Below are positions 30,889 to 44,840 of a stretch of 64,000 nt of DNA, one piece after another. Position numbers and translations under genes: made by a program. This DNA comes from an uncultured Pelagibacteraceae bacterium (GTDB lineage Bacteria > Pseudomonadota > Alphaproteobacteria > Pelagibacterales > Pelagibacteraceae), in contig CACKUI010000002.1 of NCBI GenBank assembly GCA_902603305.1, positions 17,543 to 81,542 of the forward strand, given 5' to 3'. The notes beneath the pieces are model-generated. The model saw only the letters and a program-made list of their open reading frames with translations. It did not search any database and was not told the DNA's origin. The first letter of the stretch is position 1. Each line of letters opens with the position of its first letter.

Positions 30889-31356
30889 AATCGTACCAAA
30901 ATTAACAATATTTTTTTTATTGATTGGATTAACTTCGTGTTCGTACAGCCCAATTTTTTCAGCAAAAAATTATAATTTTGAAATTGATAATATTATTTTA
31001 ATTGGAGAGAAAGAAATAAATAATGTAATTGAAAATAAACTTAAATTAATTCGAAACGATGGGAGTACAAACAAAAAAAATATAATATTGAAATAATATC
31101 AAAAAAAAACATAAATACTATCTCTAAAGATTCAAAAGGAGATCCATTAAAATTTGAAATGATTGCTTACGTCGAATACAAATTGACACATAACGAAATT
31201 TCTCTATTAAAGAAAAAAGTCAAAAAAAATAGTATATACAATAATGACTCTGATAAATTTGAACTTGAACAGAGCGAAAAGATAATCTTAAAAAACCTTT
31301 CAGAAAGTATAAGTGATACAATTATTTCATCAATCATAAACTTAGATGATAATTAA
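30881..31356 (+). CDS. lptE: LPS-assembly lipoprotein LptE-like, split by a frameshift at an A8 tract (31073..31080)
   Basis: ORF 30881..31096 (lipobox LTSCSYSP) and ORF 31159..31356. The second frame is open through the overlap ([35 protein letters not shown]). Located between leuS and holA. Confidence 0.75.
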
Positions 31357-33168: not shown

Positions 33169-33969
33169 TCATGCTGCGCTCTCCACTGGTTTGTCTTGAT
33201 TTAAAAATTCCTCTGTAAAATTAAAATATGCTTTGCTACCTGGGCAAGTCTTGTCATAAATAAGTACCGGCACACCATGAGAGGGTGCTTCTGACAATCT
33301 GACATTTCTCGGTACAGCTGTGTTGTAAACTTTATTCTTAAAGTAGTTTCTTGCCTCAGCCTCTACCTCACCAGATAATTTATTTCTTTTATCATACATG
33401 GTTAGCAGTATACCTCTAATGTCTAGAGAAGGGTTTAGGTTTGATTTTATCCTCTCGATTGTTTTAATGAGCTGCGTTAAACCCTCTAAAGCAAAGAATT
33501 CTGTCTGAAGTGGTACTACAAGAGCATCTGATGCTACCAAAGCCATAACTGTGAGAAGGCTTAAGGATGGAGGGCAGTCAATTATAATATAATCATAGGA
33601 TTGCCCAGAATTGTTTAAAATTAGGGTTAATTCATCTTTCAATTTAAAGGCTCTCCTACTATCACCTGCTGTTTCAACCTCTAGTCCAGACAAATCAACA
33701 TTTGATGATATCAAATCCAAATTTTTAAAGCTTGTAGGTAAGACTACCTCTGAAATTTTTTTATTTCCATTCAATACATTATAAATATTTTGATCAGATC
33801 TTGTTGTGTTAGATAATCCAAGTCCTGTTGTAGCATTACCTTGAGGATCAAGATCGATAACAAGAATTTTTTTTCCTTTCATCGTTAAACCAGCAGCAAG
33901 ATTGATGACAGTAGTAGTCTTACCTACACCACCTTTCTGGTTTATAACTGAAATAATTTTTCTACTCAT
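33169..33969 (-). CDS. parA: Chromosome-partitioning ATPase ParA
   Basis: INQKGGVGKTTTVINLAAGL deviant Walker A; DLDPQGNATTGLG. Confidence 0.98.
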   Translation of the reverse strand: MSRKIISVINQKGGVGKTTTVINLAAGLTMKGKKILVIDLDPQGNATTGLGLSNTTRSDQNIYNVLNGNKKISEVVLPTSFKNLDLISSNVDLSGLEVETAGDSRRAFKLKDELTLILNNSGQSYDYIIIDCPPSLSLLTVMALVASDALVVPLQTEFFALEGLTQLIKTIERIKSNLNPSLDIRGILLTMYDKRNKLSGEVEAEARNYFKNKVYNTAVPRNVRLSEAPSHGVPVLIYDKTCPGSKAYFNFTEEFLNQDKPVESAA

Positions 33970-34606
33970 ATTTTTTTTTCAAATTTGAAATTTTTACTAC
34001 TGATGACTCATCACTTGTTAGACTCTTCATGACCTCTAAGTCGAATTTCCATTTTATTGAAACATCTTTCAAAATTTTTTTTCCACTCTTGCCTAGATAC
34101 ATGACTATGTATTTAAAATTTTTAAAATTCTTCGTTGCAATATCAAAAATCACTGGCAAAGGTTTAAATGCTCGACAAATTATTACATCCGTAACTAAGT
34201 TTTTCTCCTCAAAAATATTTTTTTGATAAATTTTAGCTTCTAATTTGAATTTTTTTGCCATCTCTTTAAGGAAATTGCTTTTATGATAACTCTTTTCATA
34301 AAAAATTAGCTTAAAACCTTGCTTTTTAGGTTTCATCAAAATACCCAAAACTATACTAGGAAGCCCTGCCCCCGATCCAAGATCAGTGCAAACCTTAATG
34401 TCATTTTTATCAATAAAATCAACGGTTTGTGCACTATCGTAAATATGCCTTGATTTTATTGATTTTTCTGTACTCGAACTAATCAAATTAATTTTCCTGT
34501 TTGTGTTTAAAATTGACTGCGAATATTCCTCAAGCTCCATTAATGTTTCACGTGAAACATTTGGGAGATAAATTTTATCTTTTTTTATAATTTTCGAATC
34601 AATCAA
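33962..34606 (-). CDS. rsmG: 16S rRNA (guanine527-N7)-methyltransferase
   Basis: [18 protein letters not shown]; between parA and mnmG. Confidence 0.95.
34544..34559. promoter_or_regulatory. parS centromere site, perfect 16-bp palindrome
   Basis: TGTTTCACGTGAAACA, identical to the bacterial parS consensus, inside the 5' part of rsmG. Confidence 0.95.
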
Positions 34607-36474
34607 GCTATATGCTTAATAGACTTTCTTTTGACATGAGACAACAAAATATACACTGCAGCTGGAGTAATTCCATCTATTCTAAGTGCTTGACCTAGTG
34701 TTTTTGGCTTTATCTTCTTAAATTTTGTCTTTACTTCATTTGATAATCCAGAAAATTGATCATAATCTAAATTTTCTGGTATTTTAAGATTTTCGTCCCT
34801 TTTAAATGCTAAAATATCTGCATCTTGCTTCTTCAAATATCCTTTATAATGAGCTTTAATCTCAATTTGCTCATCGATTTCACGTGAAACATATTTAATT
34901 TCTGGCCAAATTTCCCTAATTTTAGCCATATTTATTAACTTATGGCTCAGTATTTCTAATGCATTTCTTTTAACCCCGTCTTTAGCGATATTAATTCCAA
35001 ATTTAGAGGCTTTTGATGGGGAAATTAAAGAATTTTCCATTATTTCAAGACTTTTTTCTAGTTTAGACGCTTTCTCTTTAAATATCATTTTCCTTTCCTC
35101 TAATATTAAACCGATATCAATTCCTTTTTGGGTAAGTCTTATATCTGCATTATCAGATCTCAAAGATAGCCTGTATTCTGCCCTTGAGGTGAACATTCTA
35201 TAGGGCTCTGCGACTCCTTTTGTAACTAAATCATCTATCATTACTCCAATATAGGCTTCAGATCTATCAAGTATAAATGGCTCCATACCCTTTATAGAGA
35301 GAGCTGCATTAATTCCAGCTATCAATCCTTGTGCTGCAGCTTCTTCATAGCCTGTTGTTCCATTTATTTGTCCTGCAAGGTAAAGATTTTTTATTTTTTT
35401 GGTCTCTAAGGTTAAGAAAAGCTCTCTTGGGTCAACAAAATCATATTCTATAGCGTATCCAGGCCTTAAAATTTTAACATTCTCTAAACCATTGATATTG
35501 TTACATATTTCTTGCTGTATTTCAGCAGGAAGAGAAGTTGAAATCCCATTAGGGTAGATTGTTTTATCATTTAGACCTTCTGGCTCTAAAAATATTTGAT
35601 GCTTTTGCTTATCTGCAAACTTTACAATTTTATCTTCTATTGATGGACAGTATCTAGGACCAACTCCTTGGATACTTCCTGAGTACATAGCACTACTTTT
35701 TATATTTTTAGAAATGATCTTATGCACTGCTTGATTGGTGTAAGTCATCCTGCATGAAATTTGTCTGTTGATATTTTTTTTTGTTAGGAAAGAAAAAAAA
35801 TATGGATCTTCATCTGCGTGCTGCTCTTCAAGTTTTTCGAAATTAATTGTCGTTGCATCCAATCTTGGTGGTGTTCCTGTTTTTAATCTTCCAATTTTAA
35901 AATCATATTTTTCTAATTGTTCACTTAAACCTGTTGAAGGTTTTTCATTAAATCTGCCTGCAGGCGTTTTTTCATCACCAATGTGAATTAAACCATTTAA
36001 AAAAGTTCCAGTTGTAAGGATTACTTTAGATGATAGTACTTTTTTACCTTCTTGTGTGATAAAACCAATTATATTGTTTTTTTCAAAAATAAACTCTATT
36101 ACAGGATCACAAAAAATGCTTAAATTACAGTAATTTACAAGTTTTTCTTGCATATATTTCTTATATAATGATCTATCACTTTGAGTTCTTGGCCCACGCA
36201 CAGCTGGGCCTCTACTTCTATTCAATAAACGAAATTGTATTCCTGATTTGTCTGCAACTTCACCCATTACACCATCTAATGCATCTATCTCTCTAACAAG
36301 ATGACCTTTACCTAATCCCCCTATTGCTGGATTGCATGACATCTCACCAATAGTATCAAATTTATGTGTAAATAAGGCTGTATTTACTCCTAATCTAGCA
36401 GATGCTGCTGCTGCTTCACAGCCAGCATGACCACCACCAATTACAACCACATCAAACGATAACTCATTTTTCAT
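34603..36474 (-). CDS. mnmG: tRNA uridine-5-carboxymethylaminomethyl modification protein MnmG
   Basis: [43 protein letters not shown]. Confidence 0.99.
34876..34891. promoter_or_regulatory. Second parS-like site (14/16)
   Basis: GATTTCACGTGAAACA, mismatching parS only at the first two bases, inside mnmG. Confidence 0.8.
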
Positions 36475-41737: not shown

Positions 41738-42730
41738 TTATAAATTCTTTGAAATAAGATGTTTGAATAAAGAAATATGATCTTCATTATCATTTAAGCA
41801 AGGTATCATTTCAAAGTTTTCACCGCCTGATTTGATAAAACTTTCTTTCCCTTGGATGGATATTTCTTCTAAAGTCTCTACACAATCAGATGAAAAACCA
41901 GGACATATAACTAAAATATTTTTTTTTCCCTCTTTTGGCAAGGCTTCAAAAGTTTTATCTGTATAAGGTTGTAGCCATTCTTGAGGGCCAAATCTTGATT
42001 GAAATGTTGTCAAAATTTTAATATCTGAATATTTTTCAGAAATAAGTCTTGTGGTTTTATGACAATAGCAATGATAAGGATCGCCCTTGTCAAAATATTT
42101 TTTTGGTATTCCATGATACGAAGCTACTATTAAGTCTGGTTTCCAATTAATTTCGTTAATTTTTTTTACAATACTATTTTTAATAGCATCTATATAAAGA
42201 GGTTCAGACTCATAATGAGGAATTATTTTTAAATTTGGTTGCCACCTCATTTTCATCAGGGTTCTATAAACCTCATCACATACAGTTGCAGTCGTTGCTG
42301 CAGCATATTGAGGATAAAGAGGTAGCACAATTAAATTTTCACAACCCTTTTCATGAAGATCATTTATTTTGTTTTTAATACTTGGATTGCCATATCTCAT
42401 AGCAAAATCAACAATCAAGTTTTCATTGCCAATTTTCTCAGATAATTTATGGGCTTGGCTTTCTGTAAAAAACCTAAGTGGTGACATGTTCTTGTCTTTC
42501 ATCCATATTTCTTTGTAGGCTTTAGCTGTTTTTGATGGTCTGAAAGTAAGTATAAATAAGTTAAGAATTACTTGCCAAATAAAAGGATTTACTTCGATAA
42601 CTCTTCTATCTGATAAAAATTCCTTTAAATATTTCCTTATATCCAGCCAACTAGTGGAATCGGGTGTGCCAAGATTTACAATTAAAACCCCTGTTTTTCC
42701 ATAGTTAACTTTTGGGTGGTCTATTGTCAT
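41738..42730 (-). CDS. hemH: Ferrochelatase
   Basis: GVLIVNLGTPDS; VASYHGIPKKYFDKGDPYHCYC. Confidence 0.98.
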   Translation of the reverse strand: MTIDHPKVNYGKTGVLIVNLGTPDSTSWLDIRKYLKEFLSDRRVIEVNPFIWQVILNLFILTFRPSKTAKAYKEIWMKDKNMSPLRFFTESQAHKLSEKIGNENLIVDFAMRYGNPSIKNKINDLHEKGCENLIVLPLYPQYAAATTATVCDEVYRTLMKMRWQPNLKIIPHYESEPLYIDAIKNSIVKKINEINWKPDLIVASYHGIPKKYFDKGDPYHCYCHKTTRLISEKYSDIKILTTFQSRFGPQEWLQPYTDKTFEALPKEGKKNILVICPGFSSDCVETLEEISIQGKESFIKSGGENFEMIPCLNDNEDHISLFKHLISKNL

Positions 42731-43728
42731 TTAAAGTCTCTTACAATTTTAATCAAGTCTTCAACCATTTCAATTTTAGTTTCTGGTAGAATTCCATGTC
42801 CTAAATTAAATATGTATGGATGATCCTTAAAAATATGAAGATATTTTTCCACTTCTTTTTTAAGAATTTCTTTATCAGTTAATAATATTTTAGGGTCGAG
42901 TCCCCCCTGAATGGGAATTTTTATTTCTTTTACTATTTTTTCTGGATCAACATCATAGTCTATATTTACTGCATCTGGTTTAACTATTTCACAGAAATTT
43001 TTGTAATTTTTAATACCTCTTGGAAAACAAATTACAGGTATGCCTAATTGTTTAACATATTCTACAATATTTAATGTGGGTATATAAATATATTCAGGAA
43101 TTTTATCATCTAATAATCCTGCCCAACTGTCAAAAATTTGAATTACTTTAGCCCCAGCCTCAACTTGATTTTTTATATGAACTTTTAGGAATTTTTCAAT
43201 GATTTGTAATAGTCTATTTATTAAAAAATCATCTTTAAAGAATTCACTTGTAAGACCTTTTTTTGGTGATGATCTATTAATCATATATACAAGAATAGTC
43301 CATGGAGCTCCAACAAAACCTATCATGTCTTTATTACCCATTAAAGGGTCCTGGGAAGTTTTGGAAATTGCTTTGTAAACTTTATAAACTTTTTCTGTAA
43401 AGTTAATTTCGTCAACATTTTTAATATTATCTAATTCTATTTCTCCAAGTTTTGGTCCAAAATTTTTTTCGAATTCTACCTTTTGACCAAGACCATATGG
43501 TAACATCAAAATGTCAGAAAATATTACTGCACCATCAAACCCAAATCTCTTTATAGGTTGAAGAGTTATTTCAGATGCTAAATCGCTATTTAAACAAAGT
43601 TTTATAAAATCTGTATTTTTTCTTCTTATCTCTCGAAATTCGGGTAAATACCTTCCTGCTTGTCTCATTAACCATATAGGATTAGTTTTAGTATCTTTAT
43701 TTTTTATACAGTTAGTTAAGGGACTCAT
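42727..43728 (-). CDS. hemE: Uroporphyrinogen decarboxylase
   Basis: PIWLMRQAGRYLPEFREIR; GFVGAPWTILVYM; FNLGHGILPET. Confidence 0.98.
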   Translation of the reverse strand: MSPLTNCIKNKDTKTNPIWLMRQAGRYLPEFREIRRKNTDFIKLCLNSDLASEITLQPIKRFGFDGAVIFSDILMLPYGLGQKVEFEKNFGPKLGEIELDNIKNVDEINFTEKVYKVYKAISKTSQDPLMGNKDMIGFVGAPWTILVYMINRSSPKKGLTSEFFKDDFLINRLLQIIEKFLKVHIKNQVEAGAKVIQIFDSWAGLLDDKIPEYIYIPTLNIVEYVKQLGIPVICFPRGIKNYKNFCEIVKPDAVNIDYDVDPEKIVKEIKIPIQGGLDPKILLTDKEILKKEVEKYLHIFKDHPYIFNLGHGILPETKIEMVEDLIKIVRDFK

Positions 43729-44012
43729 ATAAATAGATATATATTATTTACTTTATTAGTATTATGTATTGTGAATAACGTAAATTAGTCAATTATCACA
43801 GTTTGTTAACTCTTTATTAATAATTAAGATCTTAAATTAGCTCTATTTTATAAGGATTAATCAAGATTTCTCATATTTTATGTATATTATGTATAACTTT
43901 GTTAACATTTTATAATTTAGTTAATTTGATGGAAAAAAAACTAACTATTATTATTCAAAGGAGTAAATCTGAATTTTTCTTATTTTACTTATAGACTATA
44001 AACGCTTTATAC
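43729..44012. other. Candidate replication origin oriC (hemE-ppsR intergenic)
   Basis: 284-bp AT-rich gap at divergent orientation switch; DnaA box TTATTCACA (minus, 43770..43778), tandem TTATGTATA x2 (43878..43895), two TTTGTTAAC repeats, 12-bp palindrome TTAAGATCTTAA. Confidence 0.72.
43878..43895 (+). repeat. Tandem direct 9-mer repeat TTATGTATA x2 in candidate oriC
   Basis: ttatgtata|ttatgtata; third near copy TTATGTATT at 43762..43770. Confidence 0.85.
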
Positions 44013-44840
44013 ATGAGAAATTTATATCAAATATACTTAATATCAGACTCTACAGGCGAAACACTTGATAGAATTTTTTTAGCTTTGAAAGCACAATTTC
44101 CTAATTTCGAATACGAGACAAATCATTTTTCCTTTACTCGTACTGAAAGTCAAACTCTTAGTATACTAAAACAGGCAAAAGAAGATAAAAACTCAATTAT
44201 TTTATATACTATTGTTAATAGTAAATTAGCAAAATATCTTACAGAAAAAGCCTACGAAAGAAAAATACCTTGTTTTGGAGTTCTTGGGGATTTAATTTTA
44301 AATTTTTCAAAAGTCTTAAATCAAAAGGCTTCTCACCAACCAAGTGGGCAACATATTCTAAATGAAGAGTACTATGACAGAATTGAAGCTATTCAATTCA
44401 CCATGAACCATGATGATGGTAATCAAACTGATGATATAGAGAAATCAGATATTATTTTATTAGGTGTAAGTAGAACAAGCAAAACACCAACTTCCATCTA
44501 TCTAGCTAATAGAGGGTACAAAACTTCAAATATTCCGTTAGTAAATAAAAATTCTATACCATACAAAGTTACAGAAAAAAATTTCAGACCATGCGTTGTT
44601 GGTTTAATTACAGAAGCAGAAAGATTATATGATTTAAGAAAAAATAGATTGAATTCATTGAAAGAAGATCAAAATAGTGAATATGTTAATATTGATAAGA
44701 TTAAAGATGAACTTGATAATGCTAGAAAATTATTCAAAGAGAACAATTGGCCAACTATAGATGTAACAAGAAAATCAGTTGAGGAAACAGCAGCGTCAGT
44801 AATAAAAATTTTTGAGATAAAGAACAAAAAAAATGCCTAA
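44013..44840 (+). CDS. ppsR: Pyruvate, phosphate dikinase regulatory protein
   Basis: IYLISDSTGETLDRI; LLGVSRTSKTPTSIYLANRGYKTSNIPLV. Confidence 0.95.
   Translation: MRNLYQIYLISDSTGETLDRIFLALKAQFPNFEYETNHFSFTRTESQTLSILKQAKEDKNSIILYTIVNSKLAKYLTEKAYERKIPCFGVLGDLILNFSKVLNQKASHQPSGQHILNEEYYDRIEAIQFTMNHDDGNQTDDIEKSDIILLGVSRTSKTPTSIYLANRGYKTSNIPLVNKNSIPYKVTEKNFRPCVVGLITEAERLYDLRKNRLNSLKEDQNSEYVNIDKIKDELDNARKLFKENNWPTIDVTRKSVEETAASVIKIFEIKNKKNA

Follow-up and report, generated by a model that had tools for sequence, protein, structure and literature searches.

Where does replication of the chromosome begin in SAR11, one of the ocean's most abundant groups of bacteria, and which sequences could open the duplex there? 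The question is raised by the gap between hemE and ppsR in a 64-kb stretch of an uncultured Pelagibacteraceae genome (the window), which a preliminary description had called a probable chromosome origin. The open literature searched yielded no published description of how a SAR11 origin is built. The oriC of HTCC1062 has been reported as ‘manually identified’ (PMC4033161), so the existence and rough position of the SAR11 origin are probably already known to specialists. With an origin resolved to the base, and an unwinding element and array of boxes proposed for it, the control of SAR11 replication could be tested in vitro using purified DnaA, and the origin position is an anchor for peak-to-trough growth-rate estimates in marine metagenomes. 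We consider the hemE–ppsR gap very probably the oriC of the SAR11 chromosome, probably opened by DnaA and a trio-type element as proposed below (probability about 0.93). At the level of sequence, its location, conservation, box array, skew and parS are established by comparison.

The surroundings of the gap largely agree with the preliminary description. Leftward lie hemH, hemJ and rho, rightward maf, aroE, coaE and dnaQ, with hemE on the minus and ppsR on the plus strand, and the strings quoted in that description were found where it placed them or 1–2 bases off. Its statement that the Caulobacter and Rickettsia origins lie beside hemE also accords with the literature, which places the origin at hemE–COG1806 in both, as known for Caulobacter and as predicted for Rickettsia (PMC1914354). 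The phrase ‘largest AT-rich gap’ survives in part: the gap has an AT content of 81.7% (71.4% for the whole window) and is the largest interior gap when ORFs of at least 60 aa are counted, but with a 100-aa cut-off it is exceeded by a 457-bp stretch (30889–31345), and it does not rank top for AT-richness among the stretches of the window. A search of the 64 kb for RNA elements and tRNAs found none. Gap size is near-constant (261–294 bp) across nearly all hemE-flanked Pelagibacteraceae gaps examined, 29 gaps of relatives measure 261–289 bp with an AT content of approximately 82–87%, and in most of the alphaproteobacterial loci examined from other families hemE is likewise divergent from ppsR and a few hundred bp away from it. 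In two genomes of one such family (G153 and G253; loci L204 and L205), the ppsR match was reported with one internal TAG stop. The coordinates of all features are collected in Table 1.

Table 1. Features of the predicted origin and its neighbourhood (window coordinates)
Feature	Position	Strand	Remarks
parA-like partition ATPase, origin-proximal neighbour	33169..33969	minus	ParA/MinD-type; best TIGR03453, 117 bits; all matches below cut-off
parS TGTTTCACGTGAAACA	34544..34559		Perfect match; 9.2 kb from gap
hemE, left flank	42727..43728	minus	TIGR01464, 318.8 bits
hemE–ppsR intergenic region, predicted oriC	43729..44012		284 bp; basis: length conservation, skew, parS, DnaA boxes
DnaA-trio-like run 5'-ATA ATA CTA ATA-3' (opposite strand 3'-TAT TAT GAT TAT-5')	43754..43765	minus	Polarity and spacing; near-invariant
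Spacer, 4 nt, DnaA box to trios	43766..43769	minus	4 in most gaps having a trio run
DnaA box TTATTCACA	43770..43778	minus	Exact TTATNCACA; near-invariant in 48 close relatives
Weak co-oriented box-like 9-mer TAATTTACG	43779..43787	minus	Position conserved, sequence semi-conserved
Phased array unit 1, ATTATCACA, degenerate	43792..43800	plus	+22 from reverse box; TTNTNNACA in 15/49 gaps
Phased array unit 2, TTGTTAACT, degenerate	43803..43811	plus	Offset +33; from alignment; first TTTGTTAAC of the preliminary description
Phased array unit 3, TTATTAATA, degenerate	43814..43822	plus	Offset +44, 12/49 gaps; PWM 7.9
Variable linker, including palindrome TTAAGATCTTAA of the preliminary description	43823..43875		Mean majority frequency 0.77 (43822–43875)
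DnaA-box variant TTGTTAACA	43899..43907	plus	PWM 8.6; semi-conserved stretch
Conserved ppsR-proximal block	43960..44012	plus	At least 95% conservation at 75% of positions
Box-like CTATAAACG in ppsR-proximal block	43996..44004	plus	TTATAAACA in most close relatives
ppsR (DUF299/COG1806, Kinase-PPPase), right flank	44013..44840	plus	PF03618, 296.9 bits; also NF003742

The host genome of the window is 51% complete and split over 33 contigs, and skew was therefore taken from relatives; among named genomes it stands nearest to single-cell genomes of uncultured Pelagibacteraceae, with 92–99% identity in ppsR, which places it in SAR11. GC skew had been named in the preliminary description as a check on an origin, and in complete relatives its minimum indeed falls near the gap and its maximum near the antipode. 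Over the whole chromosome of one complete relative (G003, 1.2 Mb), the cumulative GC skew, once detrended, forms a V with its minimum at 98 kb and its maximum at 674 kb, compared with 66.9 kb for the gap and 667 kb for the antipode; the raw minimum is 31 kb off the gap in a shallow, noisy valley. Third codon positions (GC3), after correction for gene orientation, place the best origin at 65 kb with a supported range of 55–110 kb, while their terminus estimate of 900 kb is displaced from the antipode and AT3 is only loosely informative. In G009, from another genus of the family, skew sampled at two-thirds coverage reaches its minimum at approximately 180 kb and its maximum at approximately 780 kb, with the gap at 141 kb and the antipode at 747 kb, and the coarse, more thinly sampled profile of G043 is compatible with the gap. 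The skew switches thus agree with the gap and its antipode within approximately 30–40 kb and are not base-precise.

Because the minimum is this broad, the true origin could in principle lie elsewhere in the same 50–100 kb, for example at dnaA, leaving the gap as a relic or a DnaA-titration site. Indeed, dnaA does not adjoin the gap, being approximately 64 kb off in the genus and at 130 kb in G003. However, the best GC3 origin in G003 nearly coincides with the gap, parS lies 8 kb from it there, the gap sequence is under strong constraint, and no other window of that genome equals its DnaA-box score. We regard an origin at another locus as extremely unlikely. A parS with 0–1 mismatch lies 7–19 kb from the gap in the genome of the window and in all 11 complete (single-contig) relatives searched. 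A second parS-like site, GATTTCACGTGAAACA, with two mismatches, is located at 34876–34891 within mnmG, approximately 330 bp from the perfect one, and G043 likewise has a parS-like pair, 332 bp apart.

DnaA-box content was evaluated with a position weight matrix (PWM) as well as by strict counts. When the matrix is trained without it, the G003 gap has the highest score among the 23,995 windows of that genome, and the strict box count also places it first. The window's own gap ranks approximately 11th with a matrix trained on relatives (10 of 1275 windows score higher) and holds just one strict TTATNNACA. Taken alone it is not outstanding, and the case for an origin therefore rests on the relatives. 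There, TTATNNACA is present in all 29 gaps, with 90 occurrences versus 9.7 (maximum 18) in dinucleotide shuffles that do not correct for shared ancestry, and forward sites stand 11 bp (28 versus 1.1) and 22 bp (19 versus 1.2) apart far more often than expected. The SAR11 DnaA retains RDHTT, the canonical box-reading helix by comparison with E. coli. IHF-type WATCAANNNNTTR sites number 4, versus 2.4 in shuffles.

Conservation was aligned across 48 close relatives, and boxes and trios were surveyed in 49 gaps family-wide. Positions 43729–43795 are almost invariant among the close relatives, and 43754–43787 have a mean majority frequency of 0.989, compared with 0.65 at fourfold-degenerate ppsR sites. 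On the minus strand this core reads TAATTTACG-TTATTCACA-ATAC-ATA-ATA-CTA-ATA. The DnaA box that the preliminary description had placed here matches TTATNCACA exactly, as just one other site in the 64 kb does, and a reverse box at this anchor recurs across the family. The weak 9-mer upstream of it reads TAATTACCA, TAATCACCA or TTAACCCCA in relatives. A perfect DnaA-trio reads 3'-GAT-5', which corresponds to 5'-CTA-3' on the strand carrying the box (PMC8287927, PMC8235120). Basal unwinding calls for a box, a spacer of at most 16 and at least three NAN trios, 3'-GAT-5' being preferred, and the window offers these with a spacer of 4, four trios and one GAT. Across the family, 48 of 49 gaps have a CTA no more than 20 nt from the box (16.4 expected), and just over half of the 49 carry three or more trios without interruption, nearly half lacking such a run under the strict search. 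From these patterns, we infer that the weak 9-mer may act as a box and 43754–43765 as a working trio run.

On the ppsR side of the core, forward boxes recur in the family at +22 and +44 of the reverse box, with a more degenerate unit at +33; the unit at +44 reads TTATTAACA in most close relatives. These relaxed TTATNNACA boxes and the trio-like run are what is conserved, and the proposal that the 9-mers listed in the preliminary description serve as initiator elements specific to the lineage is for the most part incorrect. The conservation in relatives on which that proposal depended is strong in the gap core and does not extend to the TTATGTATA repeats or the palindrome TTAAGATCTTAA, each found in 1 of 29 genus gaps, and both are rejected as initiator elements. 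The TTTGTTAAC repeats fare better: the second, with the following A, is the plus-strand DnaA-box variant at 43899–43907, and the first falls in the degenerate second unit of the array. Together with the skew of complete relatives, the strongly conserved core bears out the central claim of a chromosome origin.

Conservation of this kind might also come from promoters and leaders, making the gap a mere divergent hemE/ppsR promoter region. It does lie between divergent genes, the blocks adjoining both genes are conserved, and the one proximal to ppsR may well act as a promoter. The genus g9, however, speaks against this reading. Here the left neighbour is rho instead of hemE, approximately 100 bp farther away, and the box motif persists beside ppsR; hemE of the three g9 genomes G009, G022 and G031 occupies a distant locus, and the motif is missing upstream of it. 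Since the g9 gap retains the motif and the relocated hemE does not have it, the motif belongs to the gap and not to the hemE promoter. The top box score in the G003 genome and the concurring skew and parS likewise speak against promoters as the whole explanation, which we judge very unlikely; the ppsR-proximal block (43960–44012) may double as the ppsR promoter within an origin. The g9 hemE genes (L313, L314 and L315) score only approximately 184 bits against a TIGR01464 cut-off of 303, and the gene ahead of them has a hemB-like end. Both points suggest that a divergent uroporphyrinogen decarboxylase has taken the place of the original one.

CtrA is the textbook alphaproteobacterial cell-cycle switch and silences the equivalent Caulobacter origin. 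Silencing of the SAR11 origin by CtrA at TTAA-N7-TTAA sites, in the manner of Caulobacter, would fit the shared gene address, and the string occurs in 8 of 29 gaps, one copy starting near 43806 in the window. It is not enriched, however (18 versus 17.5 in shuffles of the 29 gaps), and arises automatically from TTATTAACA boxes in 11-bp phase. CtrA was sought in 15 near-complete SAR11 genomes and none was found: the best matches are at most 35% identical, and the top ones examined resemble mostly PhoB by eye. The same query, a possibly imperfect Caulobacter CtrA sequence, has 55–82% identical relatives in 11 of 14 other Alphaproteobacteria. An earlier survey also reported no ctrA in Pelagibacter (PMC2877005). 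Because neither CtrA nor an enrichment of its sites was found, the CtrA-site reading is rejected as extremely unlikely, and the gap appears as a CtrA-less form of the Caulobacter/Rickettsia-type origin. The CcrM site GANTC is rare in the relatives' gaps (two strand counts, in 1 of 29 gaps, versus 10.0 in shuffles, sd 4.3), and a CcrM homolog has been reported in SAR11 (PMC3973325).

With the gap as oriC, the conserved elements suggest an order of events. DnaA would load onto the reverse box pair (43770–43787) and then extend to the adjoining trio-like run, so that the duplex would open beside hemE. Farther on, the three forward boxes in helical phase (43792–43822) would gather more DnaA on a single helix face, and more distant boxes toward ppsR would likewise collect it. 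Forks would depart bidirectionally, and the nearby parS with ParAB would segregate the new origins. As CtrA is absent, initiation would have to be controlled by DnaA itself or by other factors. Tentatively, and at somewhat less than even odds, the ancestral address may have been kept after the loss of CtrA, with the 11-bp-phased relaxed boxes beside a trio-type element carrying control and filling the 11-bp register that CtrA half-sites occupy in Caulobacter.

Compared with known systems, the SAR11 gap is a member of the hemE–COG1806 origin type with the CtrA layer missing. It resembles the Caulobacter crescentus Cori and the Rickettsia oriC in the same flanks and orientation, an AT-rich gap some hundreds of bp long and several DnaA boxes (PMC1914354). 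Unlike these, it lacks CtrA and any enrichment of CtrA sites, is shorter (approximately 280 bp versus 383–404 bp), and carries boxes that are mostly TTATNAACA and not TTATNCACA, three of them in 11-bp phase. With the basal unwinding system of Bacillus subtilis and many other bacteria it shares a co-oriented box pair, a short spacer and CTA/ATA repeats in the right polarity (PMC8287927, PMC8235120), but most of its trios read ATA, CTA occurring just once or twice, and the run is interrupted in many gaps, its spacer is not GC-rich in the genome of the window, and its upstream box is weak. The g9 arrangement recalls the origins of Wolbachia, Ehrlichia and Anaplasma, where one ancestral neighbour is kept and the other replaced (PMC1914354): in those genera hemE is kept and COG1253 replaces COG1806, and in g9 it is ppsR that stays and hemE that gives way to rho.
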